This document shows, one piece after another, positions 3,299 through 19,249 of a stretch of DNA of 64,000 nt (the stretch's first letter is position 1; every line of letters starts with the position of its first letter). The translations under genes were made by a program, and so were the position numbers. The notes beneath the pieces are model-generated. The model worked only from the letters and a program-made list of their open reading frames with translations, made no database searches and was not told where the DNA came from. Source of the DNA: Thelonectria olida (taxonomy: Eukaryota > Ascomycota > Sordariomycetes > Hypocreales > Nectriaceae); assembly GCA_020736575.1 (NCBI GenBank), contig JAGPYM010000003.1:2480001-2544000 (forward strand), in the 5' to 3' direction.

Positions 3299-4633
3299 AT
3301 GCCTCTCCGCCCTCATCATGGCGTTGCTTTCCCAGCTCACGCTTACCAACGACGCCATATAGAAACGCATTCACCCGGCTACCAGCCCAAGGTCCGCATC
3401 ACCGACAAATATCGCATTGTAGGTTTTATTAGTTCCGGCACATATGGACGTGTCTACAAAGCCGTCGGCCGCAATGGCAAACCCGTCGGCGAATTTGCCA
3501 TCAAGAAGTTCAAGCCTGACAAGGAAGGCGAGCAAATCAGCTACACGGGAATCTCACAGAGTGCCATCCGTGAGATGAGTTTGTGTAGCGAGCTGAGCCA
3601 CGGCAACGTCATTCGACTGTGCGAAATCATGCTCGAGGACAAATGCATCTACATGGTCTTCGAGTTTGCCGAACACGATTTACTTCAAATCATCCATCAT
3701 CACACCCAACAACCTCGACATCCGATTCCTCCCGCCACTGTCAAGAGCATCATGTTTCAGCTTCTCAACGGATGCCAGTACCTTCACACCAACTGGGTCT
3801 TACACCGTGATTTGAAGCCCGCTAACATCATGGTCACGTCTGGCGGCGAGGTCAAGATTGGCGATCTGGGACTGGCCCGTCGATTCGACAAACCATTGCA
3901 CTCTCTCTTCAGCGGCGACAAAGTAGTTGTGACAATATGGTATCGGGCACCGGAACTGATTCTGGGGTCCTTTCACTACACCCCCGCCATCGACATGTGG
4001 GCTATTGGCTGCATTTTCGCTGAGCTGTTGTCCTTGCGACCTATCTTCAAGGGAGAAGAAGCAAAGATGGACAGCAAAAAGACGGTTCCATTCCAGCGCA
4101 ACCAGATGCAGAAAATTGTCGAGATCATGGGCATGCCTACTAAAGAGAAGTGGCCCCTACTGCCCACCATGCCCGAATACCACCATCTCCAAACCCTCGG
4201 CAACTCCATGTCCTCACACCATCACCACCACAGCGGCCACCACCATGGCCACTACGGTGGGCGCACTCAGCATGCCCCGAGCACCTCTAACCTAGAGAAA
4301 TGGTACTACAGTACTATATCTCACTCAGGCGGGCCTAATGGCTCCGCGCCTCTCCAATCTCTCGGTTCTGAAGGATACAAGCTCCTTGCCGGTTTGCTGG
4401 AATACGACCCTTCGAAGCGCCTTACAGCTGCGCAGGCACTGCAGTCGCCGTTCTTCAGTACGGGTGACCGTGTCAGTAGCAACTGTTTCGAGGGATGCAA
4501 AAACGAGTACCCCCATCGTCGAGTGAGCCAAGATGATAACGACATTCGCACAAGCAGTTTGCCGGGCACAAAGCGGAGTGGTCTGCCGGACGATTCGTTG
4601 ATACGGCCGGCTAAGCGAATGAAGGAGCATTAG
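3299..4633 (+). CDS. ssn3: Mediator kinase SSN3 (Srb10/CDK8)
   Basis: Cyclin-dependent serine/threonine kinase of the Mediator CDK8 module, which with cyclin C (SSN8) phosphorylates the RNA polymerase II C-terminal domain and transcription factors in the nucleus. The 444-residue frame is uninterrupted. The kinase domain begins near residue 38 with the glycine loop GFISSGTYGRVYK. It has a catalytic lysine in FAIKKF (about 69), a cyclin-contact helix SQSAIRE (87-92), HRDLKPANIM (169-178), DLG in place of DFG (189-191, as in yeast Srb10) and TIWYRAPEL (212-220). The KGEEAKMDSKKTVPFQRNQM segment is typical of fungal SSN3. A histidine-rich insert lies near residues 306-321, between the kinase C-lobe helices. 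In Fusarium the orthologous pair FCK1/FCC1 affects conidiation and secondary metabolism. An N-terminal extension by an upstream exon is possible. Confidence 0.95.
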   Translation: MPLRPHHGVAFPAHAYQRRHIETHSPGYQPKVRITDKYRIVGFISSGTYGRVYKAVGRNGKPVGEFAIKKFKPDKEGEQISYTGISQSAIREMSLCSELSHGNVIRLCEIMLEDKCIYMVFEFAEHDLLQIIHHHTQQPRHPIPPATVKSIMFQLLNGCQYLHTNWVLHRDLKPANIMVTSGGEVKIGDLGLARRFDKPLHSLFSGDKVVVTIWYRAPELILGSFHYTPAIDMWAIGCIFAELLSLRPIFKGEEAKMDSKKTVPFQRNQMQKIVEIMGMPTKEKWPLLPTMPEYHHLQTLGNSMSSHHHHHSGHHHGHYGGRTQHAPSTSNLEKWYYSTISHSGGPNGSAPLQSLGSEGYKLLAGLLEYDPSKRLTAAQALQSPFFSTGDRVSSNCFEGCKNEYPHRRVSQDDNDIRTSSLPGTKRSGLPDDSLIRPAKRMKEH

Positions 4634-5302: not shown

Positions 5303-5593
5303 ATGCGCCATAACAATAATGGGCCACGCAAGTGTACCGCCTGTGGCTGGATTCAGCGCTGGTGCAACAATTTCGTGACGTGCGAGGACGCCGAAAGGTC
5401 GGGGAAGCGGTGCGACGAGCGGCCGTTGAAGCCTAGCGACAAGCCTGGAGACCCAGCCGACTGTATTGTGTGTAATCCTCCCCCTTCCGCTTGTAGTCGG
5501 GGGGGCAGTCGAAAGGGAGGAGCGTGGGTTCCTGGTGGATCTGAGGCTCAGAGGATGAAGTGGTCAAGGTTTCTTGCAGCGGAAGAGGCGTAG
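5303..5593 (+). CDS. Array member A: cysteine-rich microprotein with extended tail
   Basis: First gene of a head-to-tail array, function unknown. The 96-residue protein carries the array's cysteine frame: C11-x2-C14, then C27, C37 and a closing C53-x2-C56, plus an extra C21. These two CxxC knuckles suggest a small zinc-binding fold (inference). It is the only member without Cys at residue 2: it has Arg (CGC), one transition away from TGC. It is also the only one with a long tail (about 40 residues, Gly/Ser/Arg-rich) beyond the last CxxC. The start at 5303 is supported because it puts the first CxxC at 11/14, exactly as in every other member. No signal peptide or membrane segment, and no intron. 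Confidence 0.7.
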   Translation: MRHNNNGPRKCTACGWIQRWCNNFVTCEDAERSGKRCDERPLKPSDKPGDPADCIVCNPPPSACSRGGSRKGGAWVPGGSEAQRMKWSRFLAAEEA

Positions 5594-6013
5594 CATCAGC
5601 AATGGCAATTTCCTTGGTATTTTGGAACCCTGATACTAATTCTATCCGACTGTATTATATTATGTGATGTTATTTGTGTTACTGAGTGAGGTGTATAGAC
5701 AAGGACCATCATCATGGACGCTCTTCTGAGACTGTTCGGTTGATGGTGACATTGGTCGGCATGCCATCAACTTCTAAACTTCCCTGACTCGGGAGTTTTC
5801 AATGCACGATCCGAATGGTAAAGAAAGGCCAAGAGGATGTAAATCATGACTACAAACTCCGAACGTGAAACTGACAAATTCTTGGCTCTATAAGAACTGC
5901 CTGTGACCCGCCAGATGCCAATAGCTTTAACACAGTAAAGAAAGAAACCAAGAAAACAAACTGGCACAAAAACAAATTTCAATTTTAGTGATCAAATTTG
6001 CTTAGATACGATT
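5594..6013. other. Array spacer A-B
   Basis: No gene seen. AT-rich spacer containing the TATA-like CTATAAG (5888-5894) that probably serves the next gene. Confidence 0.45.
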
Positions 6014-6205
6014 ATGTGTACCCTATATCGAGTCGAGCCCCGGTGCGAGCGGTGCGGAGAGATAATCGGTAGCGTCACGGACAGCTTGAGTGGCTGTCCT
6101 GAGGCGCCGGCCAGGTTCGAAGATTGTCCAAAGTTTAAGAAGGTACCCTGGCCTCAGAATGTGAGTTATGAAAGTTGTTTCAAATGCTCTCGGGGGGCGA
6201 TGTAG
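6014..6205 (+). CDS. Array member B: cysteine-rich microprotein
   Basis: A 63-residue intronless protein of unknown function with cysteines at 2, 11, 14, 28, 38, 55 and 58, which is the complete seven-cysteine frame of the array. The first knuckle reads CERCGE and the last CFKC. No signal peptide. It has an aspartate/serine-rich middle and a very short tail after the last cysteine. A TATA-like CTATAAG lies about 125 bp upstream. It is the second unit of the array and reads in the same direction as its neighbours, each apparently with its own promoter. Confidence 0.75.
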   Translation: MCTLYRVEPRCERCGEIIGSVTDSLSGCPEAPARFEDCPKFKKVPWPQNVSYESCFKCSRGAM

Positions 6206-6303
6206 GCCTGATTGACGGGAAAGGGGAGAGAGTGGATGAAGGAGAGTGAAGAAGATGAAAGTCAAGATGGCCAATTCAAGCATATTCTAGTCTTAATTGG
6301 TGT

Positions 6304-6331
6304 GAATCACTCCTCTTGTATGAAGTGATTC
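6304..6331. repeat. Short inverted repeat between array members B and C
   Basis: GAATCACT (6304-6311) is followed 12 bases later by its perfect reverse complement AGTGATTC (6324-6331). It lies about 100 bp after the stop of member B and just before the TATA-like element of member C. It could form a short hairpin or be a palindromic protein site, but chance cannot be excluded. Confidence 0.35.
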
Positions 6332-6493
6332 GAATCCCAGCTGGTAGATTAAAAGGCCCAAGCCGCCCAGCACCTCTTCCTATTTTCCCATCCACAACAG
6401 CAATCAAGCATTATTACTAAGAACATCCAAGTTGGCGTCGTATTACGTTACATCTGACTCTCCTAATTAGAACTTTCAGAGAAATAGTAAACA

Positions 6494-6694
6494 ATGTGTA
6501 AGGCCATCGGTACCCGCGACGTCTGCAGAGTTTGCAGGCGCGTACTCAAGGAAGGCCCAAAAGAATTTGCCAAGGGCGAACCTGGGCATCCTCCCAGGTA
6601 CACCCAGTGCCCTGACCTCAAGGTGACCTATAAAGACAATGAATTGGACCCGAGTAATTGCCCCAAGTGTAGGCAGAAGGGACGCAGCAAGTAA
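6494..6694 (+). CDS. Array member C: cysteine-rich microprotein lacking the middle cysteine
   Basis: A 66-residue intronless protein, function unknown, with cysteines at 2, 11, 14, 39, 56 and 59. The fourth cysteine of the frame (near 27) is absent, and the corresponding stretch is Lys/Gly/Pro-rich. The protein is strongly basic, ending in RQKGRSK, which could favour nucleic-acid or acidic-partner binding (inference). A TATA-like ATTAAAAG sits near 6347, about 147 bp upstream. The ATG context and the Met-Cys opening match the other members. Confidence 0.72.
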   Translation: MCKAIGTRDVCRVCRRVLKEGPKEFAKGEPGHPPRYTQCPDLKVTYKDNELDPSNCPKCRQKGRSK

Positions 6695-6862
6695 GGTCGA
6701 TAGGAAGGATGGGCTAGGTTGTTGAGTCTCTGGGCATGGAACCACAGTCACAAACTAAGACAGTTGCAGTGATGGACCGTTGCTAGAGAAGATAGCGAAG
6801 AAAGCATTAAGCAGTGGTTATTACACACGAAGACTGTGATTAGAGTTGACCAAATCCGCATG

Positions 6863-6870
6863 TATTTAAG
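6863..6870 (+). promoter_or_regulatory. TATA-like element of array member D
   Basis: TATTTAAG 131 bp before the ATG of the gene at 6994, at the spacing that recurs through the array. Confidence 0.45.
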
Positions 6871-6993
6871 TATTTCCACCGACCTCCCCGTTCAGCCTCG
6901 GGTCAGTTCCACAACTCTCACTTAAGAAGACCTAGAATTGACAACTCAATTAACCGTTCAAGTCTCTTAGCCACCAGTCGTAAAAGACTCAAC

Positions 6994-7203
6994 ATGTGTC
7001 TGAAATACACAATCGTCTACCACTGTGATAACTGTGGCCACGACGTCGAGGCCATCGTCAAGTGGTTTCAATGCCAGGAAAAACTAGAACTCGGAACTGA
7101 GGAACATTGCGACCCCCCGAAGAAAGTCGCGGAGGAACGGAGAACCATGCATATGGCCAATTGTCGCAAATGTCGAAGGACTGCCTATAGCCGCGGAGAT
7201 TAG
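6994..7203 (+). CDS. Array member D: cysteine-rich microprotein
   Basis: A 69-residue intronless protein with the full cysteine frame: 2, 11, 14, 27, 39, 57 and 60. The first knuckle reads CDNCGH, the second CRKC. Charged throughout, with no signal peptide or membrane segment. Function unknown; by its paired CxxC motifs it probably binds zinc (inference). It follows member C by 299 bp and precedes a longer 765 bp gap that may hold a decayed copy. Confidence 0.75.
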   Translation: MCLKYTIVYHCDNCGHDVEAIVKWFQCQEKLELGTEEHCDPPKKVAEERRTMHMANCRKCRRTAYSRGD

Positions 7204-7612
7204 CATGGGGTTTGTTTGAGAGCGAGGAACCGCCGTTGTATGCGCACCATGTCATCAACACGAGGGCAGTATGGCTTGGAATTGCTTTGACTGCGAGTTC
7301 CATAGCTAGGTTCTCGGCGCAGGAAGATAACATGACATGCCCTTGCTTGGTCTTGGCCTATCGTGCAACCTTGCAGCGTCGTCTAGATGAACATATCGAA
7401 CTCGCTTCTTTGCCACATTTAGTTTTAGAGTGTATCGATTGAAGAAGACTCGTGTCTACCCGATGGACTTTATTTCCATTCAATATCATGCACACGCCAA
7501 TTGCTCTACATGGGGTGACAATGGCTTATGCTCACTAGTTTTTGACGGATGCCTTAGTGGATGAGAGTTGACGGACAAAGACTAGGAAATGGAGATGAAC
7601 AATTAACAATAT

Positions 7613-7765
7613 ATGTATCAAAACACAATAGTCATTCTAGACAAAGAAATGTGTTAAGAACGTGTGGCATTGGGAAGACTCTAAGAAGGGCAATGCTGTT
7701 CTGTGAACGCACTTGTTCACGCCAAAGCAAGACCGAGTGCAGGTACATCAGAGAACAGGATGGCA
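7613..7765 (+). pseudogene. Possible decayed array copy
   Basis: In the oversized gap between members D and E, a frame around 7663-7745 reads CG-x11-C (C at 7663 and 7702), then two more cysteines and a closing TECRYI. The 12-residue distance between the first two matches C14 to C27 of the array, and the ending resembles the ECRVC closure with the second Cys lost. No matching ATG is in this frame; an ATG-TAT at 7613 in another frame lies 39 nt before a TGT, which is the C14 spacing. Frameshifts would be needed, so the call is weak. Confidence 0.28.
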
Positions 7766-7818
7766 CAGAGTTCATAATGAAACTGCTATTAATGATGGTG
7801 AATGAATGCGCAACAAAT

Positions 7819-7828
7819 GCATAAATAC
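7819..7828 (+). promoter_or_regulatory. TATA-like element of array member E
   Basis: GCATAAATAC about 148 bp before the ATG at 7969, at the array's usual position. Confidence 0.45.
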
Positions 7829-7968
7829 AGGGTGATTCTCCTCAGGTGTCGAGTCTCTAAACTCACCCTCAACTCCCATCAAGCACACAACAGTACAATC
7901 CACTAGCAGCCACCATCCCATCGCCATTCGCACTTACCACAGATCCAAAGCCACTACATATAACCAGA

Positions 7969-8154
7969 ATGTGCGGAATTCGGGACGAAATCAAGGAGTG
8001 CGAGGTGTGCGGCCACCAGATTGAGTTCGGTCGAGTTCTCTTGGATTGCATCGCTGCACAAGCGAGCGGTCGTATGTGCCGTAATCCGCGTGATCTTCCC
8101 GATAAGATTACGAGAAAGCCCAAGGAGGACTGCGAAGTTTGCACGCCTCGGTAA
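7969..8154 (+). CDS. Array member E: cysteine-rich microprotein
   Basis: A compact 61-residue intronless protein close to the array's minimal form: cysteines at 2, 11, 14, 27, 37, 55 and 58 and only three residues after the last one. The opening knuckle is CEVCGH, shared in style with members D and J. Function unknown. No secretion signal is seen, so it probably stays in the cytoplasm or nucleus (inference). The + strand orientation and private TATA-like element (7819-7828) match its neighbours. Confidence 0.75.
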   Translation: MCGIRDEIKECEVCGHQIEFGRVLLDCIAAQASGRMCRNPRDLPDKITRKPKEDCEVCTPR

Positions 8155-8375
8155 TGAGAAGTGCAGCAGTATGAGGAGAGAGGATGGCCCTGAGTGGTTG
8201 CGAAAAAGGGGTTTGCGGTCTGCATGATGCACGAAGCTTTCCCTTGATACCCATCTCAGGCGAGCTTCGCGATGCAGCAATTATTCAATACTAAACTATC
8301 TCAATAAACGTCGTTCATCCTGTGACATTTGTTATTCACTTCTCGCGCAATGCGGGTCAGTCACGAATCGATAAC

Positions 8376-8560
8376 ATGTGCAAGCGTCAGCAACAACCTA
8401 CCGCACTAAGTGCCAAATGCCGTAAATCAGGACATTCCACGAAGCTCACGTGGATTTCAGTGTTTTGTTTTTCAAGACAAATGTGACCATCCCAATGGTG
8501 CAAGAGATGACTGTATATTGCCCAAAGGAGGAATGTTACCGATGCGTTCGAGAAGAGTAG
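8376..8560 (+). pseudogene. Decayed array member (frameshifted)
   Basis: The region starts with ATG-TGC (Met-Cys) at 8376 like the intact genes and ends with codons for ECYRCVREE and a TAG at 8558-8560, which is a good match to the closing CxxC and charged tail of the family. In between, TGC codons at 8411 (frame 2) and 8418 (frame 0) give the first knuckle, CxxC if one base is missing, followed by RKSGH and a Cys at 8466. The two ends lie in different frames (0 and 2), and the starting frame stops at 8484. At least two indels therefore separate it from a working gene. It sits in the array's largest gap. The alternative is chance, but matching both ends at the right length (185 bp) makes that unlikely. 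Confidence 0.6.
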
Positions 8561-9019
8561 GAGAACGACGCTGAACAGAAGCAGGTTTCAGACACGAAAG
8601 ATTTGCCTGAATCACCGTGACAGAGGGCGATTGATATAGCCCAGATGGGTATGACATGAAAATTTGTCTCGGACAGGCCGTTCTGACTTCCCTCTTTCAC
8701 ATGCATCTACGACAGCACAGCTCTAAATGCTTGTACGCGTTGACAGCTCATGTGATGGACCCGTGTGCTTCCATCTGAGTGACTAGACTATTATTGAGTG
8801 ACAAAACCTCCGTAGCCAATAATATGCTTCTACTGTACGCAAGTGAATCGCTTCACATATCATCATGCATGAGTGTGCCACGTTTTGACGTCAAGTCAGA
8901 CGTGTCATGAAGTATTACTTGTAGACAATAACAACAACAACAATCGTTCCAAAAATGATGAGATCTGCTCGCGTTCATACCTAAATGCGCAGGCGCGTGG
9001 GCTGGAGGAGCTATCAACC

Positions 9020-9172
9020 ATGTGTTCAGCAGCTCCAACAGCAACCAACAGTGCACAAGCTCACAAAGGTCTAGTGGTTCGTGGTACTTGTTTCAACATC
9101 AAGACTCATTTGCACGAGGGGGAGGCGAAAACCTGTTTCCTCCAAGATGGTCACACTGGCCTTTCACGCTGA
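9020..9172 (+). pseudogene. Possible decayed array copy
   Basis: An ATG-TGT (Met-Cys) at 9020 opens a 50-codon frame with further cysteines at residues 24 and 39. A TGC-ACA-AGC at 9052 in a shifted frame could be the first knuckle with its second Cys changed to Ser. The closing CxxC is not found. The match is partial and could be chance. Confidence 0.22.
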
Positions 9173-9466
9173 TGAGCATAGGGCAATACTAGTAGTACGA
9201 AGTCCGGAGACGAGACATGAATATGATGCGTTGACTTCATCAATGTGCCTCTATGAGGTTCTTTGGTTGAACTGTCATGTTGTTGTGGTTTATTGTCCTA
9301 TTGTCGGCTCTAGGAAGTCTTGGAAGCGGTGTTGAACAGTCGAGGGTGAGGCCTAGTGCACACAGAAGTGAGCTCCTCGGCAACTAGGAGGAGATTAGGC
9401 GAGTCATTACTAAACTGGTTCAATCAAAGCATAGTTGGATATTGAGTCAGCGAGACCAGTACCGGG

Positions 9467-9474
9467 TATATATA
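9467..9474 (+). promoter_or_regulatory. TATA box of array member F
   Basis: TATATATA 101 bp upstream of the ATG at 9568, the clearest TATA box in the array. Confidence 0.55.
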
Positions 9475-9567
9475 CTTAAGTACCCATGCCTACCTACATC
9501 CGGGTTTCGATGAGCAACGAAATCGCAGCAAACCCGTCAAGTCATCAACAGCAAGAACATCACCAAG

Positions 9568-9777
9568 ATGTGTAAGAAATACTTAACACCTAAACATTGC
9601 TCTTTTTGCTACCATTTAGTCTATTACAGTGGAAAGTTCAAACTCTGCAGCGAGACGGACCCATGTGGACGACTTAAACAAATCACCAACCCCCCGAGGC
9701 CAACAAGCCCAGAGAAGTGTCGAGTGTGCAATCCTATCGTTCCAGATCCATGCAGCGAATACGTAGACTCTGATTGA
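9568..9777 (+). CDS. Array member F: cysteine-rich microprotein
   Basis: A 69-residue intronless protein with cysteines at 2, 11, 14, 27, 33, 51, 54 and 62. The loop between the fourth and fifth cysteine is shorter than elsewhere (5 residues instead of 9-11). The tail after the last knuckle is acidic and proline-containing, unlike the basic tails of members C and H. Function unknown. A TATA box lies 101 bp upstream. The Met-Cys start and C11/C14 spacing fix the start codon. Confidence 0.75.
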   Translation: MCKKYLTPKHCSFCYHLVYYSGKFKLCSETDPCGRLKQITNPPRPTSPEKCRVCNPIVPDPCSEYVDSD

Positions 9778-10132
9778 ACCCTTGTACACTACTTGGGTGT
9801 TCGCCACATGTTGCTTAGGTGTCTGCGGAACGCATAGCAACAGACGTACAGACAGCGGAGGATAATGGACGGTGGGCGTAACACATGAGTTCTTAGTCAA
9901 CGTTGATTCAGATTGAGAGGTATGTACGCCTTTCGGCAGTGTCTTATGTGACAATGGCTCACGGTCTCTCGATGACTATAAATGTGATCTTCTCTATTGG
10001 TTCTCAGGCATGATTCCAAGAAGAAACTATTCATACCCAACATCAAGCCCAATCTAATCAAAGCGACTTGTTTAATTGCCTACCTACCAAAGAAGCGACA
10101 CACTTATTAGGATCTACCTAGTTGAAGAAAGA
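9778..10132. other. Array spacer F-G
   Basis: No gene seen apart from the TATA-like CTATAAAT (9976-9983) of the next unit. Confidence 0.45.
9976..9983 (+). promoter_or_regulatory. TATA box of array member G
   Basis: CTATAAAT 157 bp before the ATG at 10133. Confidence 0.5.
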
Positions 10133-10318
10133 ATGTGTGATCGCATCACACTACGTCTGCGATGCTCCGAGTACGGCCACCTCACAGGCTTCGGCAGATG
10201 GGTCGACCGGTGTGAGACCGGCAAGGCTACTAGGAGAGATTGTATACGATTAAAGAAATTCATCAAATGCAAGTTGGTGCCAGTTGACGAGTGTCGTGTC
10301 TGCTGTGATGGAGAGTAG
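10133..10318 (+). CDS. Array member G: cysteine-rich microprotein with broken first knuckle
   Basis: A 61-residue intronless protein with cysteines at 2, 11, 27, 37, 46, 54, 57 and 58. The second Cys of the first knuckle (residue 14) is Tyr (TAC), one G-to-A transition from TGC. The surrounding Gly-His after it is kept. Two extra cysteines (46, 58) occur. I chose the start at 10133 rather than the upstream in-frame ATG at 10076 because it gives the array's Met-Cys opening and C11 spacing and lies the usual distance from a TATA box. Function unknown; zinc binding by the first knuckle may be lost or re-routed. Confidence 0.7.
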   Translation: MCDRITLRLRCSEYGHLTGFGRWVDRCETGKATRRDCIRLKKFIKCKLVPVDECRVCCDGE

Positions 10319-10721
10319 CACGGGAGAGAGCTGGTGCTGGAAAGCGTGTGGAAGTAACGTGCGGACAGATGGCTGGGACAAGGCCGTCAAGAAAGCTTCA
10401 AGTTGCCACCTAATGTAATGTAATGTAATGACACTCATGAAAGATGGTCTTTCTTTCAAGGTTTTAGGATATCACATTTATTGGCAATGAACAGATTAAA
10501 CACGAACAACTATATTTCGCTGTTCACAAAGACATCCACAGCCAACATGTTCGTGCTATGATAAAGAGAATCGTTCGTATAGCAAACTGCTTGTGCATAT
10601 AATAGCTACCATAGGTCATCACGACATTCTAGTACGTATGAGGATCGGATGCTTCGACATTGACATTTACAGCCCTACCGAAAAACCCCAATACCCTCAC
10701 CACTGAAATAAGCTTGCAAAT
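10319..10721. other. Array spacer G-H
   Basis: No gene seen. A run of TAATG repeats (about 10413-10430) and a TATA-like CATATAATAG (10596-10605) for the next unit. Confidence 0.45.
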
Positions 10722-10940
10722 ATGTGCAATCGAGTCAAATGGGCCATCTTCTGCTACAGGTGCGAGAAGCTGCTGGGCACTGAGTGGGACGAAACCATCT
10801 ACAGATGTATCCGCGCCCGGGACGATGGCGTGGATTGTCAGCTGAAGACGAGGCACACGGATTCCAAGTGGACTGCTTACAAGGACTGCAAGGCATGCGT
10901 GAAGAAGGAGAAGAAGCGAAGGCAGACTGATTCGGCTTGA
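10722..10940 (+). CDS. Array member H: cysteine-rich microprotein, basic tail
   Basis: A 72-residue intronless protein with cysteines at 2, 11, 14, 29, 39, 56 and 59. The first loop is two residues longer than in most members. The tail after the last knuckle is rich in lysine and arginine (KKEKKRRQ), which resembles a nuclear localisation signal, so a nuclear role is possible (inference). Function unknown. A TATA-like element lies about 126 bp upstream. Confidence 0.75.
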   Translation: MCNRVKWAIFCYRCEKLLGTEWDETIYRCIRARDDGVDCQLKTRHTDSKWTAYKDCKACVKKEKKRRQTDSA

Positions 10941-11129
10941 AAACCATCATGGCCCCTTGTTCGGAGTGATTGTTCAAAACCAAGGTAGTCTTAGCGATTA
11001 ATCTTACAGAACCGTTTGCTCAATTCTCAATTGCTGTAGACTGAATATCTGACAAACAAAGAAATGGAACGATTTGTTACAAGGGCTGCCTTCAAAGACA
11101 TGCTGTGACGAGCACTACTCGGCCTGATG

Positions 11130-11139
11130 CTATTTAAAC
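11130..11139 (+). promoter_or_regulatory. TATA-like element of array member I
   Basis: CTATTTAAAC about 101 bp before the ATG at 11232. Confidence 0.45.
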
Positions 11140-11231
11140 GGTTGCGCTTTTCCTTCGCAACCAAGACATATTTGCACCCTACATACAACATACACCTATT
11201 CCTTCAAACCCGCCAAAGGTCAATTACCAAA

Positions 11232-11441
11232 ATGTGCGACGCCTTCCTCAACATGTATTACTGCGTCTGCGGCAACTTCCTGGGCAAGGAGTCTAAAGAC
11301 GAACGTTGCTACCACGCGATGCAGGTCGGGCGCAATTGTCAAACAAAGGAGAAAAAGGAACGGAAGTTGACAAAGCCCAAGTCGGAGTGTCCCAGATGCC
11401 AGGAAGAAGAGGCGCTCAAAAGACACTTGGACAGTAACTAG
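11232..11441 (+). CDS. Array member I: cysteine-rich microprotein
   Basis: A 69-residue intronless protein with cysteines at 2, 11, 13, 26, 36, 53 and 56. The first knuckle is CxC instead of CxxC: a one-codon deletion that shifts the later cysteines by one. The rest is close to member J just downstream, notably the LTKPKSECPRCQE closing segment. I take the start at 11232 (Met-Cys) although the frame is open further upstream, because the upstream part is the TATA-containing leader. Function unknown. The pair I/J looks like the most recent duplication in the array. Confidence 0.75.
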   Translation: MCDAFLNMYYCVCGNFLGKESKDERCYHAMQVGRNCQTKEKKERKLTKPKSECPRCQEEEALKRHLDSN

Positions 11442-11690
11442 GCAATGAGCCAGTTCTGCTCTGGTGATATAGATGCTGGGTTTTGAGCCAGCTGAATCAC
11501 GAAGCATGTCTAGATAGATTGTGATCAAGAGTACCAGACCTCAATGTTTTCTATTTATTCTCGTATGCTCCCGCCTATTGCACTAACTAACAAATCTAGT
11601 TAAACATTAGTTTCTTCTATCAAGACGGAGTCACACTCTACCTATGCCACCATACCTGTCTTCAAATCTCACCAAAGCCAAGTCGCGAAA

Positions 11691-11903
11691 ATGTGCAAGA
11701 GGTTCAACTTCCTGTACAAGTGCGAGGTCTGCAGCAATGACCTTGGGAGTAGAACCGGAACCGAAAAGTGCTGGGAGGCTCTGAATAAAGGCAAGAAATG
11801 TCGAACGACCGACATAAAAGACAAAATAAGACCGAAGCCTAGCACGGAATGCCCCAGGTGCCAGGAACGAGTGGCCATCGCACGGCGTGGTGACAGGCAG
11901 TGA
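11691..11903 (+). CDS. Array member J: cysteine-rich microprotein
   Basis: A 70-residue intronless protein with the canonical frame, cysteines 2, 11, 14, 27, 37, 54 and 57. The first knuckle is CEVC and the last CPRC. It shares the closing region KPxxxECPRCQE and the middle C-x-x-A-x-x-x-G-x-x-C with member I immediately upstream, pointing to tandem duplication. Basic, no signal peptide. A TATA-like CTATTTAT lies near 11551, 140 bp upstream. Function unknown. Confidence 0.77.
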   Translation: MCKRFNFLYKCEVCSNDLGSRTGTEKCWEALNKGKKCRTTDIKDKIRPKPSTECPRCQERVAIARRGDRQ

Positions 11904-12406
11904 AGCATCCTGCTCGGGCAAAAGCAGTTGTTTTCGAGTTAGTAAAGGAGTTGATGTGATCCAGATCCATTCATGACGCCGCAGTAAGATGAATTCATGG
12001 CCATTATAGTCAATTGAGCACTTTCGTCTATTTGTTGATGCCATGCAATGCTATCCTCCTGCCGACTGCCGCTTAATGGAATATGATGGACAATGAACGT
12101 TCTTGCCCCGTATACAAACGCCATGGAAGATGAATTTATAGTTAAGGAACGAACGCCTTGAAGCGCCTTCCATCCTCCGTCTTCTTCTTGTCGTGTTTCG
12201 CTCCCTCGGCTGTCTTCTTCCCGTCTCAACAACATTGACAGTCTTTCTCGCGATATCTTTGCAGCCATTACCTCACCTCGCCTCCGCTTGGATACCGTCA
12301 CCACCATCATACAATCGTCCAATCATCACATCGAATACAGCACCTCAGTTTCCTCCGAGACATACACCCACTCCGCCAGCAGCCATCCCCAGGGACATCA
12401 CCGACC
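11904..12406. other. Array spacer J-K
   Basis: No separate gene. A TTTATAG element at 12135-12141 is followed by a long pyrimidine-rich leader (about 270 bp) to the next ATG, longer than in other units. Confidence 0.4.
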
Positions 12407-12640
12407 ATGTGTACCCAGCCCGAGATCAGATTCGAGTGCGAGTTCTGCGAACTGGTGGTATGGGCTCAGCTGGGGGCAGTTCGATGGTGCGAAGAAGCCG
12501 TCAAACGAACCGCACCCTGCCCTGCATACGAGTCCAAGATACTTTGGGAGGAAGTTCCTCCGTGGAAGTGCGCGAAATGCCGCCCTAGGATCCAACTTCG
12601 GAAGGTCGGCGAAATTGTTTGCGTCGAATACTATCGTTGA
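12407..12640 (+). CDS. Array member K: cysteine-rich microprotein
   Basis: A 77-residue intronless protein with cysteines at 2, 11, 14, 28, 38, 55 and 58 plus C72 in a longer tail. The middle block W-C-x2-A-x-K-R-x3-P-C and the closing CAKC are shared with member L next door, so K and L appear to be a second recent duplicate pair. An overlapping frame on the same strand (12193-12588) is only leader sequence read in another phase. Function unknown, no targeting signal. Confidence 0.75.
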   Translation: MCTQPEIRFECEFCELVVWAQLGAVRWCEEAVKRTAPCPAYESKILWEEVPPWKCAKCRPRIQLRKVGEIVCVEYYR

Positions 12641-12840
12641 AGCAGTGACATAATGGGTGTCAGAAACAGACGGAGCGTTGTTTTGCAAACGGACAACAGC
12701 GAACTGTAACGTGACTTTGGACGCAACGAATACATGTATCATAGCAGTCTCGTCATGTTCAGGAATCACGGCCACTTGTACGTATCACACAGCCCACAAA
12801 GGTAATCGTGAGCCTTGAGTCACTATGGAATTCTCCAAGC

Positions 12841-12847
12841 ATAAAAG
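12841..12847 (+). promoter_or_regulatory. TATA box of array member L
   Basis: ATAAAAG 143 bp upstream of the ATG at 12984. Confidence 0.45.
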
Positions 12848-12983
12848 TCCTCGAGGTCCGGCCGAACCATGTTTCCCTCCTCCCGTCTTGATTCCCTATG
12901 AACCACCGCGGATCCTCTCACGAGTCACCAAGATCTCTTTTACTTATTCTATATCCACAGCATCCAAAGCATTGCCAGGCAAC

Positions 12984-13172
12984 ATGTGCACTGTATTCAG
13001 GATCATCGTCCGATGCGAAGAATGCAATGAAAAGATCGAGGACTACTGGACAGCCGCCAAGTGGTGCACCAGGGCTTGGAAGAGAGGCCTGCCCTGTGAG
13101 GACCCAGGAGTAGAACCAATCAACGATTGGGAGAATCCGGACAGGTGCCGCAAGTGCAGTGGCCAAGAATGA
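12984..13172 (+). CDS. Array member L: cysteine-rich microprotein
   Basis: A 62-residue intronless protein with cysteines at 2, 11, 14, 28, 38, 55 and 58 and only four residues after the last one. The start at 12984 gives Met-Cys and the standard C11/C14 spacing; an in-frame ATG at 12825 lies before the TATA-like ATAAAAG (12841) and is rejected. It resembles member K in the KWCTRAWKR segment. It is acidic in the loop before the last knuckle. Function unknown. Confidence 0.75.
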   Translation: MCTVFRIIVRCEECNEKIEDYWTAAKWCTRAWKRGLPCEDPGVEPINDWENPDRCRKCSGQE

Positions 13173-13479
13173 TGCATCATCGCCTTGAGTCTTTGTCGCT
13201 TTGAGAGCGGACAGAGGGCAGGAGCCGACGGGAGAACAGAACCCGGCGATGGGACGGATACTATGTTCGACGTCTCAATAGAACTCTAGAAGGAGATTGG
13301 AGTGTATAGGACTGTCTCGCATATGTATTTCCAGACCAGGCCTCCAATCTCGGCCGAACCTCCTCGCATCGTAACCCAATTCCATTCAAGCAACGAGCAA
13401 CGTCCAGGTCAACCCTGTTAAAGCACCCGTCTTCAAACCCGGTGAATACTCCTCTCCACGTCCCACGGCCGCCCATAAG

Positions 13480-13689
13480 ATGTGCTACGTCGCTACCACT
13501 ACGTTCGTTTGTCGGGAGTGCTATGGCCGCATCTGGCGCGAGAGGCGTGAGAAAGAATGCGCAACATCGTACGACCGATGCGGCTTCCCGTGCTGGAACA
13601 AGGTGTGGGACGAGTTCATCGAAGAGGTCGAGGAGGACTCCTGCGATCGTTGCATGGCAATCCCATTGCTTGAAAAAGACGACGCCTAG
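13480..13689 (+). CDS. Array member M: cysteine-rich microprotein
   Basis: The last intact array gene: 69 residues, no intron, cysteines at 2, 11, 14, 27, 34, 38, 55 and 58. The first knuckle is CREC and the closing one CDRC. The loop before the last knuckle is unusually acidic (several Glu/Asp in a row). A weak TATA-like TGTATAGG lies about 175 bp upstream. Function unknown; zinc binding is inferred from the paired knuckles only. Confidence 0.75.
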   Translation: MCYVATTTFVCRECYGRIWRERREKECATSYDRCGFPCWNKVWDEFIEEVEEDSCDRCMAIPLLEKDDA

Positions 13690-15323: not shown

Positions 15324-16013
15324 TTACTTCTTGGCAGGAGCGGGAGGTGCCTTGACGTTGTTTGAAAGCCACGCCAGACCCTCGAGAAGACCCTCGCCCG
15401 TCGTGGCGCAACTAGGCACCACATACCAGACCTTGTCCTTCAGCTTGGAGAGCTGGAGTTGTTCGGTGACTTCTTGAGGCGACATGGCTGGAGTAGATAG
15501 GTTAGCATGCCGTTATCACGGGTAGGGAGGGCAATAGGGGCTAAGGAAGTCACGTACCCTCCTTGAGATCTTGCTTGTTAGCAAAGACGAGCAGCAAACT
15601 ATCCCTCATTTCACGGTCGTTGATGATGCGGTGAAGTTCTTGTCGGGCCTCGCTCATGCGGTTTCGGTCGGAAGAGTCAATAACGAAGATCAGACCTTGG
15701 GTACCTGCAGGTCGGGAAGTCAGTCACGGCGCACACTGGGCATCAAGGTCGCGTTGCACGTACCGCTGAAGTAATGCCTCCAGAGAGGACGGATCTTGTC
15801 CTGACCACCGACATCCCAGACGTTGAACTTGACATTCTTGTATGTGACGCTCTCGACGTTGAAGCCGACGGTGGGAATGGTGGTGACGTCCTGGCCGAGT
15901 TTGAGCTTGTAAAGGATGGTGGTCTTTCCGGCGGCGTCGAGACCGAGCATGAGAAGGCGCATTTCCTTGGATCCGAAGATCTTGCCCATCATCTTGGACA
16001 GTTGGCCACCCAT
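15324..16013 (-). CDS. arfB: ADP-ribosylation factor, Arf6 type
   Basis: Small GTPase of membrane traffic, by homology the Arf6/ArfB class acting at the plasma membrane and in endocytosis and polarity. Three exons on the minus strand: 16013-15764, 15704-15558 and 15487-15324, with GTACGT donors, giving 186 residues. The N-terminus [14 protein letters not shown] carries the myristoylation Gly2. P-loop GLDAAGKT (24-31), switch I around IPTVGFNVE (46-54), switch [10 protein letters not shown] (66-73) and NKQD (126-129) are all present. The third exon ends in a short Ala/Pro/Lys tail. It is convergent with the array and diverges from nothing obvious upstream. Confidence 0.93.
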
Positions 16014-17857: not shown

Positions 17858-19249
17858 TCAGGCTCTGTACTCGATGACGAACCGCCGCTCAACTTGCTGC
17901 AGCGTCGTTGAGTCATTCTCGCCCTCAAACTTCAGATTGACCTTGGCATCTTCCATACTGTGCACCTCAGCCTTGTAAAATGTCGTCGTGTTGGGATAAA
18001 GCGCCAAAACCACCTTGCCCGACTCCCATGGTTTAAGCGTGCTCGCTAGGCTCTCCGGCGTGATAGGGATCATGCTGCTAGCACTCGATCGGTATTCCTT
18101 TTGCTGACTCGGGTCGTCCGGCTCAATGTCCAGCACCTTATATCGTCGACTCTTACCCTCGCCCAATACTTGTGCCACTTCGCCCAGGATCCAGTCTTGT
18201 GTCTGGTCTCCGACGGCCGGTCTGGGTTTGAACGCAACCGCGTCACCTTTTGAGAAAAGCACCTTGGATTTGTTGTTGGCCCCAGAGGACCCGGCTCCGC
18301 TCCCTGACGACCCCTGTGGCTCAACGCTATCGGCCTTGGGGGGCATGCTGTCTCTATCTCGGTTGCTGGACCGATCGCCATATTTGCGTGACGATCCTCC
18401 AATAGGGCTAGGCACCGGCGAGTCTCCAGCCCCGTCAAAATCGTACAGCGCCGAGGCTGAGGCCGCGGCGGCACTGTCTCTAGCTTGCCTTTTGCCTGGA
18501 CCTGCCGCTTGTGCTTCCGCCTGCTCCTTTGCAACAACTACTGCACGTAGCACCTTCAGATTCTCGATCAAAGACCTGAGTGAAGCAGTGTTCGCGTCGG
18601 AGTACTTAACGCCAGTGCGACAAAGCTGTTCCATGGTTTGGAGACTTTCCCCAGGGATTTTCTCAGACTCCATTGCCCCAACCTCCTTGTCAAGGTTCAC
18701 AAGGCTTTTGAGGCTATCATTCTCGGCGTTGATGCCTGCGACAATGTCGCCCACTTGGCTCTTGCAGTTCTCCCATATCTGAACTTCTTCACCGTGTGGG
18801 TTACCATTGTTCCGGTTGGACCCTCGTCCACTTCGATTTCTTTGTGACATTTCGTCACTTGGCGGTGTGTCCTTGGTCGAGTCTTGCCCTGGAATAGGCT
18901 GTGACGTTGGGTCACTTCTCTGCGGCGTCGGCTGGGCCGAGCTTTGATTCGGGGTGTCCTGCGATGGTGGTTCGGTGTTTGATGGCGTCCTTTTAGGTGT
19001 CGAGGTTGCCGAAGACTGTCGTATATGCCCGCTGCTGCCAGCTTTGGATCTCTTCCTAGAGTGACCTACTGGCGTTGAGTCTCTGCTTGAGGTATCTCCT
19101 CGCTTTCGCCTATTAGACAAGGGAGTGCCGGGCGATCCCTGTAGCTCCTGGCTCGCCGGGGCTCGTCTTGTCGAAGCAGTTTGGTGGTAGGACCCAAGAT
19201 CCTCCTGGAGGTTCTTTAAGATGCGCTCCAGCTTCTTTTCGTTAGCCAT
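17858..19249 (-). CDS. sgf29: SAGA complex subunit SGF29 (tandem Tudor)
   Basis: Chromatin reader of the SAGA histone acetyltransferase complex; by homology the C-terminal tandem Tudor domain binds H3K4me2/3 and recruits SAGA to promoters. The 463-residue protein has a short N-terminal coiled region (MANEKKLERILKNLQEDL), a long Ser/Thr/Pro-rich disordered stretch (about 20-160), a second helical stretch (about 160-240), then the Tudor pair from about residue 330, with GDAVAFKPRP, DWILGEVAQV, YKVLDIEPDD and KVVLALYPNTTTFYKAEV. I start at the ATG at 19249. The frame is open to 19276, but that part follows a splice acceptor, and an intron 19407-19277 (CAG|GTGAGT donor) lies in the 5' UTR. Confidence 0.9.
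   Translation of the reverse strand: MANEKKLERILKNLQEDLGSYHQTASTRRAPASQELQGSPGTPLSNRRKRGDTSSRDSTPVGHSRKRSKAGSSGHIRQSSATSTPKRTPSNTEPPSQDTPNQSSAQPTPQRSDPTSQPIPGQDSTKDTPPSDEMSQRNRSGRGSNRNNGNPHGEEVQIWENCKSQVGDIVAGINAENDSLKSLVNLDKEVGAMESEKIPGESLQTMEQLCRTGVKYSDANTASLRSLIENLKVLRAVVVAKEQAEAQAAGPGKRQARDSAAAASASALYDFDGAGDSPVPSPIGGSSRKYGDRSSNRDRDSMPPKADSVEPQGSSGSGAGSSGANNKSKVLFSKGDAVAFKPRPAVGDQTQDWILGEVAQVLGEGKSRRYKVLDIEPDDPSQQKEYRSSASSMIPITPESLASTLKPWESGKVVLALYPNTTTFYKAEVHSMEDAKVNLKFEGENDSTTLQQVERRFVIEYRA

Follow-up and report, generated by a model that had tools for sequence, protein, structure and literature searches.

The fungus Thelonectria olida carries, at positions 5303-13689 of a 64,000-nucleotide window (the whole stretch of DNA analysed here), an array of thirteen tandem open reading frames (ORFs), all on the + strand and encoding proteins of 61-96 residues. 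The evidence supports, at the level of sequence, a tandem protein-coding family that matches no Pfam family at cut-off and is characterized by a frame of seven nearly fixed cysteine (Cys) residues: a Met-Cys start (C2), a C11-x2-C14 pair, C27, C37 and a C54-x2-C57 pair. An earlier sequence-only reading had described thirteen + strand genes of this size with this frame, and place, strand and lengths were borne out for 13/13 ORFs, as was the frame itself, the last pair of which is counted here as C54/C57. Tentatively, and with somewhat less than an even chance, the products would be intracellular, zinc-binding scaffold microproteins in which the residues between the cysteines have diverged and each copy has its own partner.

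The cysteines are held in place with few exceptions. C11, C37, C54 and C57 are present in all thirteen proteins, and C2, C14 and C27 in 12/13 each, the count for C14 including gene 9, in which this residue lies one position early. These counts agree with the earlier claim that positions 2, 11 and 14 are invariant apart from single exceptions, which are an Arg in place of C2 in gene 1 and a Tyr in place of C14 in gene 7; gene 3 lacks C27. Codon 2 of gene 1 is CGC (Arg), that of the other twelve genes TGC or TGT (Cys), and gene 1 also has an extra Cys at position 21 and the longest tail of the array. The spacing is similarly constrained, with a C2-to-C11 distance of 9 in all 12 array proteins that have C2, a C37-C54 distance of 17 or 18 in 13/13, and 36-42 residues between the first and second pair in the 12 copies with both. 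The C-terminal tails vary from 3 to 39 residues, while C2 stays at position 2 (12/12, with the Met-Cys start assumed).

Several observations indicate that the array is coding. A strict regular expression for the frame finds 10 instances in the array, none in the remaining window and one in 200 kilobases (kb) of another contig of the genome, C100, and it finds nothing in any of 100 arrays simulated with a first-order Markov model; a looser expression yields 11, none and one, respectively, missing gene 1, which has no C2, and gene 3, which lacks C27. All thirteen genes have an A at position -3 of the start codon, as opposed to a fraction of 0.301 of all 1098 + strand ATGs in the window. When the eight blocks between the cysteines were compared with shuffled residues, those following C14 and C27 stood out most (z scores of 8.1 and 8.5, respectively), and the block ahead of the last CxxC (z 4.3) and residues 3-10 (z 3.2) came next; these 4/8 are more alike across copies than the shuffled residues, and the remaining 4/8 are not (z 0.6-1.4). 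The claim that the proteins "share almost nothing but a fixed frame" was thus correct about the frame and too strong about the rest, half of the blocks being conserved. The absence of the frame from the simulations, the A at -3 throughout and the conservation between the cysteines together argue, from the sequence, that these are real protein-coding genes under constraint. For two of them, gene 9 (at 11232) and gene 12 (at 12984), the ORF reaches farther upstream and offers another ATG in frame, at -35 and -53 codons, respectively; the Met-Cys start is likely the right one for both because of the common frame and the start context.

The pattern of substitutions points to an old family. Over the 78 pairs of genes, the median proportion of synonymous differences (pS) is 0.74 against a shuffled null of 0.71, and the median proportion of nonsynonymous differences (pN) is 0.59 against a null of 0.74. 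With pS at the level of the null and pN under it, synonymous change appears saturated and amino-acid change held back, so that the proteins look as though they carry an old amino-acid constraint. Genes 9 and 10, the closest pair (42-43% identity), have a nonsynonymous rate (dN) of 0.58 and a synonymous rate (dS) of 1.11, a ratio of ~0.52 over 69 codons. The diversifying or relaxed selection suggested by the sequence-only reading finds no backing in these values, although the constraint on the protein surfaces may be relaxed. Tandem duplications, accompanied by losses of copies, are the likely origin of the array, and they would lie far back in time, as the synonymous differences of most pairs look saturated.

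Structure prediction was carried out with AlphaFold for gene 10 and gene 12 (21% identical), both from one alignment of the same 13 sequences. The gene 10 model has β-strands at 2-11, 17-25 and 39-49 and helices at 28-33 and 55-67, with a predicted local distance difference test (pLDDT) score of 82.2; the gene 12 model has β-strands at 3-11, 17-22 and 42-50 and helices at 29-34 and 56-59, with a pLDDT of 84.7. The order of elements, β-β-α-β-α, is common to both, and C11 and C14 sit at the hairpin turn and C54 and C57 where the last helix begins. Such a placement of the CxxC pairs would be like that of a Zn(Cys)4 site. The first strand can also be read from the proteins themselves. Among the 13 proteins with C2 (the C100 copy and 12 from the array), 10, 8 and 9 have a hydrophobic residue at positions 5, 7 and 9, respectively, and 7, 2, 6 and 4 have one at positions 4, 6, 8 and 10, an alternation with a permutation p of 0.001 for positions that were picked after inspection. 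This alternation therefore suggests a strand with one mostly buried face.

In the scaffold reading, the seven-Cys frame would hold a small β-β-α-β-α scaffold. The two CxxC pairs and the fold of the models make zinc binding plausible, and C11, C14, C54 and C57 may jointly hold one structural zinc, given the position of one pair in the hairpin turn and of the other where the last helix begins. C2, C27 and C37 would come together at the opposite end of the hairpin: the gene 10 hairpin, if symmetric, puts residue 2 opposite residue ~26 and would thus make C2 and C27 neighbors, with C37 next to them, just past the short helix. The initiator methionine is usually removed when residue 2 is a Cys. Its removal would expose an N-terminal Cys, the thiol of which, perhaps aided by the amine, would add to C27 and C37 to make up a second metal site, and such a ligand would account for a C2 that stays at position 2 in 12/12 despite tails of 3-39 residues. 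The two nearly fixed distances, C2-C11 and C37-C54, may then represent two strands joining the two ends of the scaffold. With different residues between its cysteines, every copy would then engage a partner of its own, presumably inside of the cell. The fullest version of this proposal is a new fungal class of two-site metal microproteins, in which C27, C37 and the freed N-terminal Cys, through its thiol and its amine, make up the second site of a rigid, two-ended scaffold, and in which thirteen intracellular binders in a Nectriaceae lineage act like a recognition repertoire; taken as a whole, it is rather unlikely.

Several results weigh against the scaffold reading, or against the coding and constraint that it presupposes. 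The second strand of the gene 12 model is shorter and its hairpin weaker than that of gene 10, and the least confident part of both models is the stretch in which C2, C27 and C37 would meet. The weak, recurrent Protein Data Bank (PDB) look-alikes of both models, which include Fur-type dimerization domains, also include mucin-binding domains that are not zinc proteins. A hexamer coding score, for which 43 ORFs of 300 residues or longer from the remaining window and C100 served as training set, puts the true frame on top in only 6/13 genes and falls below zero in 12/13. Furthermore, the distant pair of genes 5 and 9 has a dN (1.13) above its dS (0.90) over 59 codons; this ratio is left uninterpreted because of the few codons and the high divergence, but it is no evidence for purifying selection.

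The poor hexamer scores are also the point in favor of the idea that the ORFs are spurious, which is barely credible given that no frame occurs in 100 simulations, that every start has its A at -3 and that conservation extends beyond the cysteines. They are shared with the more substantial possibility that the array consists of duplicates that are old, for the most part relaxed and of little use at present, and the frames of which stay open by chance and slow decay. Three copies that each lack one frame Cys, one shifted pair, apparently broken copies both in the array and on C100, and the genes 5/9 ratio are all consistent with this notion. Thirteen open frames with an intact start context have nevertheless outlasted near-saturated synonymous change, and the median pN under the null and the four conserved non-Cys blocks similarly speak against it, making general relaxation quite unlikely. 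A different role for C2, also unlikely, is that of a tag: after removal of the methionine, the N-terminal Cys would be acetylated, acylated, or serve as an oxygen- or redox-sensitive degradation signal, with the zinc domain as cargo. This would fit the Cys at position 2 in 12/13, its fixed spacing to the first ligand in 12/12 and the variable C-terminal tails, but a tag should tolerate a variable linker, and the constant 9-residue spacing to C11 would better suit a strand that joins two sites.

Small, Cys-rich, divergent proteins encoded in tandem also recall many secreted fungal effectors, and the array might accordingly encode disulfide-bonded effectors or antimicrobial peptides with their cysteines paired outside of the cell, some N-terminal 11-mers being mildly hydrophobic (up to 1.58). 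The odd number of frame cysteines, the two CxxC pairs typical of metal sites, the Cys at position 2 and the absence of a signal-like stretch by hydropathy (19-residue mean of at most 1.01 in 13/13) leave only a slim chance for secretion. Similarly improbable is that the proteins bind nucleic acids or the silencing machinery, resemble viral silencing suppressors and perhaps have a viral origin or an antiviral role. In a library of viral structures, an unnamed 71-residue viral protein (A0A3G8F6C8, in BFVD) tops the list for the first model (probability 0.97, template modelling (TM) score 0.43, expect value (E) 0.025). The lists of both models contain ORF1/p1 of Physalis rugose mosaic virus and of Subterranean clover mottle virus, both sobemoviruses, the Cys-R protein of the benyvirus Rice stripe necrosis virus, and, among PDB entries, sobemovirus P1 proteins (6ty0, 6xv2) including that of rice yellow mottle virus, a small zinc protein that is titled a silencing suppressor. 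The isoelectric point (pI) is above 8 in 7/13 array proteins, as would suit such binders. Against this, 0/340 and 0/424 viral matches pass E 0.001, the plant-virus rows have query TM-scores of 0.22-0.44, A0A3G8F6C8 is not among the best 50 for the second model, and two copies are clearly acidic (pI 5.1 and 4.5).

Of the known metal-binding systems, the C-terminal dimerization domain of the bacterial Fur/PerR/Zur proteins is similar in having a CxxC followed by a later second Cys pair, with 36 residues between the two in E. coli Fur (C96 to C133) and 36-42 in the array copies, and in recurring weakly among the structural rows of both models. The second pair of E. coli Fur is, however, C-x4-C rather than C-x2-C, and C2, C27 and C37 are extra relative to Fur. 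The winged-helix domain of the Fur family (PF01475) finds no room in proteins of 61-96 residues in which the first frame Cys is already residue 2 (residue 11 in gene 1), and the list of 20 Pfam families with E <= 10 for the 13 proteins does not include Fur. An hhalign comparison of the array profile with just two sequences, those of E. coli Fur and Zur, gave a probability of 3.4-3.5% over 15 columns around the first CxxC. Homology to Fur is thus not supported. The Zn2Cys6 fungal cluster has the spacing C-x2-C-x6-C-x5..12-C-x2-C-x6..9-C and is ruled out by the 13-15 residues that follow the first pair and by the lack of a common third Cys past the second pair, an extra Cys at x6 being found in gene 1 only. 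The RING finger, with eight ligands in a cross-brace of C3HC4 order, is ruled out as well, as the array proteins have seven common Cys, no common His and other spacing, and no RING family is among their Pfam rows.

Zinc ribbons have the CxxC knuckle in common with the array proteins and provide the best Pfam rows, Zn_ribbon_6 (PF07191, E 0.0019) and Zn_ribbon_8 (PF09723, E 0.002). Both stay under the curated cut-off (18.6 of 25 bits and 18.5 of 34.4 bits, in 2/13 members each), and no Pfam family reached cut-off for any of the 13 proteins, all of which were scanned, in line with the sequence-only reading, to which no named family with exactly this frame was known. In NCBIfam, the best row for the 6/13 proteins scanned is an FmdB-type zinc ribbon at 18.8 of 31.3 bits, and none reached cut-off. 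A profile of the 13 sequences found 66 word-sharing candidates in a protein database, none at E <= 0.01, and gene 10, the one protein searched singly, found no candidate sharing three 5-residue words. This database holds many fungal SSN3 proteins, so relatives are represented, but word-based searches reach close copies only, and the negative outcome therefore means that gene 10 has no near-identical relative there, not that the family is absent elsewhere. Against PDB sequences, the profile gave 19 rows at E <= 10 (best 0.062), headed by RPA12 and PARP1 zinc fingers, with NDUFS5, Nup93 and scoloptoxins among the lower rows. Searches of Foldseek and VIA with the two models gave no strong rows, which is no proof of a new fold. 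Uncharacterised small fungal proteins with a Met-Cys start and a C..CGH-like knuckle are known. In a literature search that covered mainly papers outside subscription, PMC6613475 and PMC11077047 among them, none of the titles and abstract openings listed described the protein family.

The intact genes with 7/7 frame Cys are gene 2 (6014..6205, 63 residues), gene 4 (6994..7203, 69), gene 5 (7969..8154, 61), gene 6 (9568..9777, 69, with a short C27-C37 distance of 6), gene 8 (10722..10940, 72), gene 10 (11691..11903, 70), gene 11 (12407..12640, 77), gene 12 (12984..13172, 62) and gene 13 (13480..13689, 69, the protein of pI 4.5). The others are gene 1 (5303..5593, 96 residues, with Arg at C2 and the long C-terminal tail), gene 3 (6494..6694, 66), gene 7 (10133..10318, 61) and gene 9 (11232..11441, 69, with the shifted first pair). 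The guanine-plus-cytosine (GC) content is 0.63 at the third codon positions of the array genes and 0.45 between genes. TATA-like boxes lie 60-170 bases upstream of 5/13 genes, whereas for random places the fraction is 0.12 within the array and 0.04 in the remaining window, which as a promoter signal is suggestive only. Upstream of the array lies an SSN3/CDK8-type protein kinase (3299-4633; kind by Pfam, name by relatives), and downstream, on the - strand, Pfam identifies an ARF GTPase from an ORF piece at 15720-16013 and, at 17858-19249, a tudor protein of the SGF29 type. Flanked by these conserved genes, the array therefore lies entirely within the window. Among the best 120 of 2803 matches, its own record excluded, the SSN3 of the window is closest to that of Neonectria ditissima (88% identity), the next named relatives being from Stylonectria, Stachybotrys, Sarocladium, Fusarium and Trichoderma, which makes a fungus of the Nectriaceae, the family that includes Neonectria, likely.

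The widest gap of the array contains, at approximately 8376-8560 (+), a Met-Cys start, a C-x9-C piece and a C-x2-C piece in three different frames, as judged by eye from the translations. This is probably a broken fourteenth copy; the profile alone gives only a weak match there (8510-8560, E 2.2). Two other gap stretches, at 7.56-7.82 and 9.02-9.34 kb, were weighed as broken copies and not accepted. Beyond the window, contig C100 carries an intact 81-residue relative with the full frame (224340-224582, -; E 0.0039 with gene 10) and a neighboring copy split over two frames (~225.9-226.2 kb, -). Around this second locus of the family, the GC content falls locally to 0.474 (224-226 kb). Protein searches of the 52.5-Mb genome (165 contigs) with nine family members, eight from the array and one from C100, revealed no other place with the frame. 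The genome may hold more copies, because every such search also overlooks most members of the array. A weak match on contig C35 (E 0.165) was dropped, as it lies in a 123-residue ORF without the Met-Cys frame. Of 1534 candidates for 5.8S ribosomal RNA in the genome, 39 were scored, and the sole match reported, on contig C133 (1964649-1964779), is degenerate, with a flank resembling an internal transcribed spacer; normal ribosomal DNA may be absent from the assembly.

The array illustrates how short, divergent proteins slip past family databases and homology searches. Its thirteen divergent copies separate the apparent needs of the fold (the seven Cys, the helix motif after C27 and the knuckle motif after C14) from the variable parts of the proteins. 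If the N-terminal Cys is a ligand, it would provide a reason for the Met-Cys start, and if the copies bind different partners, fungi would own a family of natural intracellular binders.

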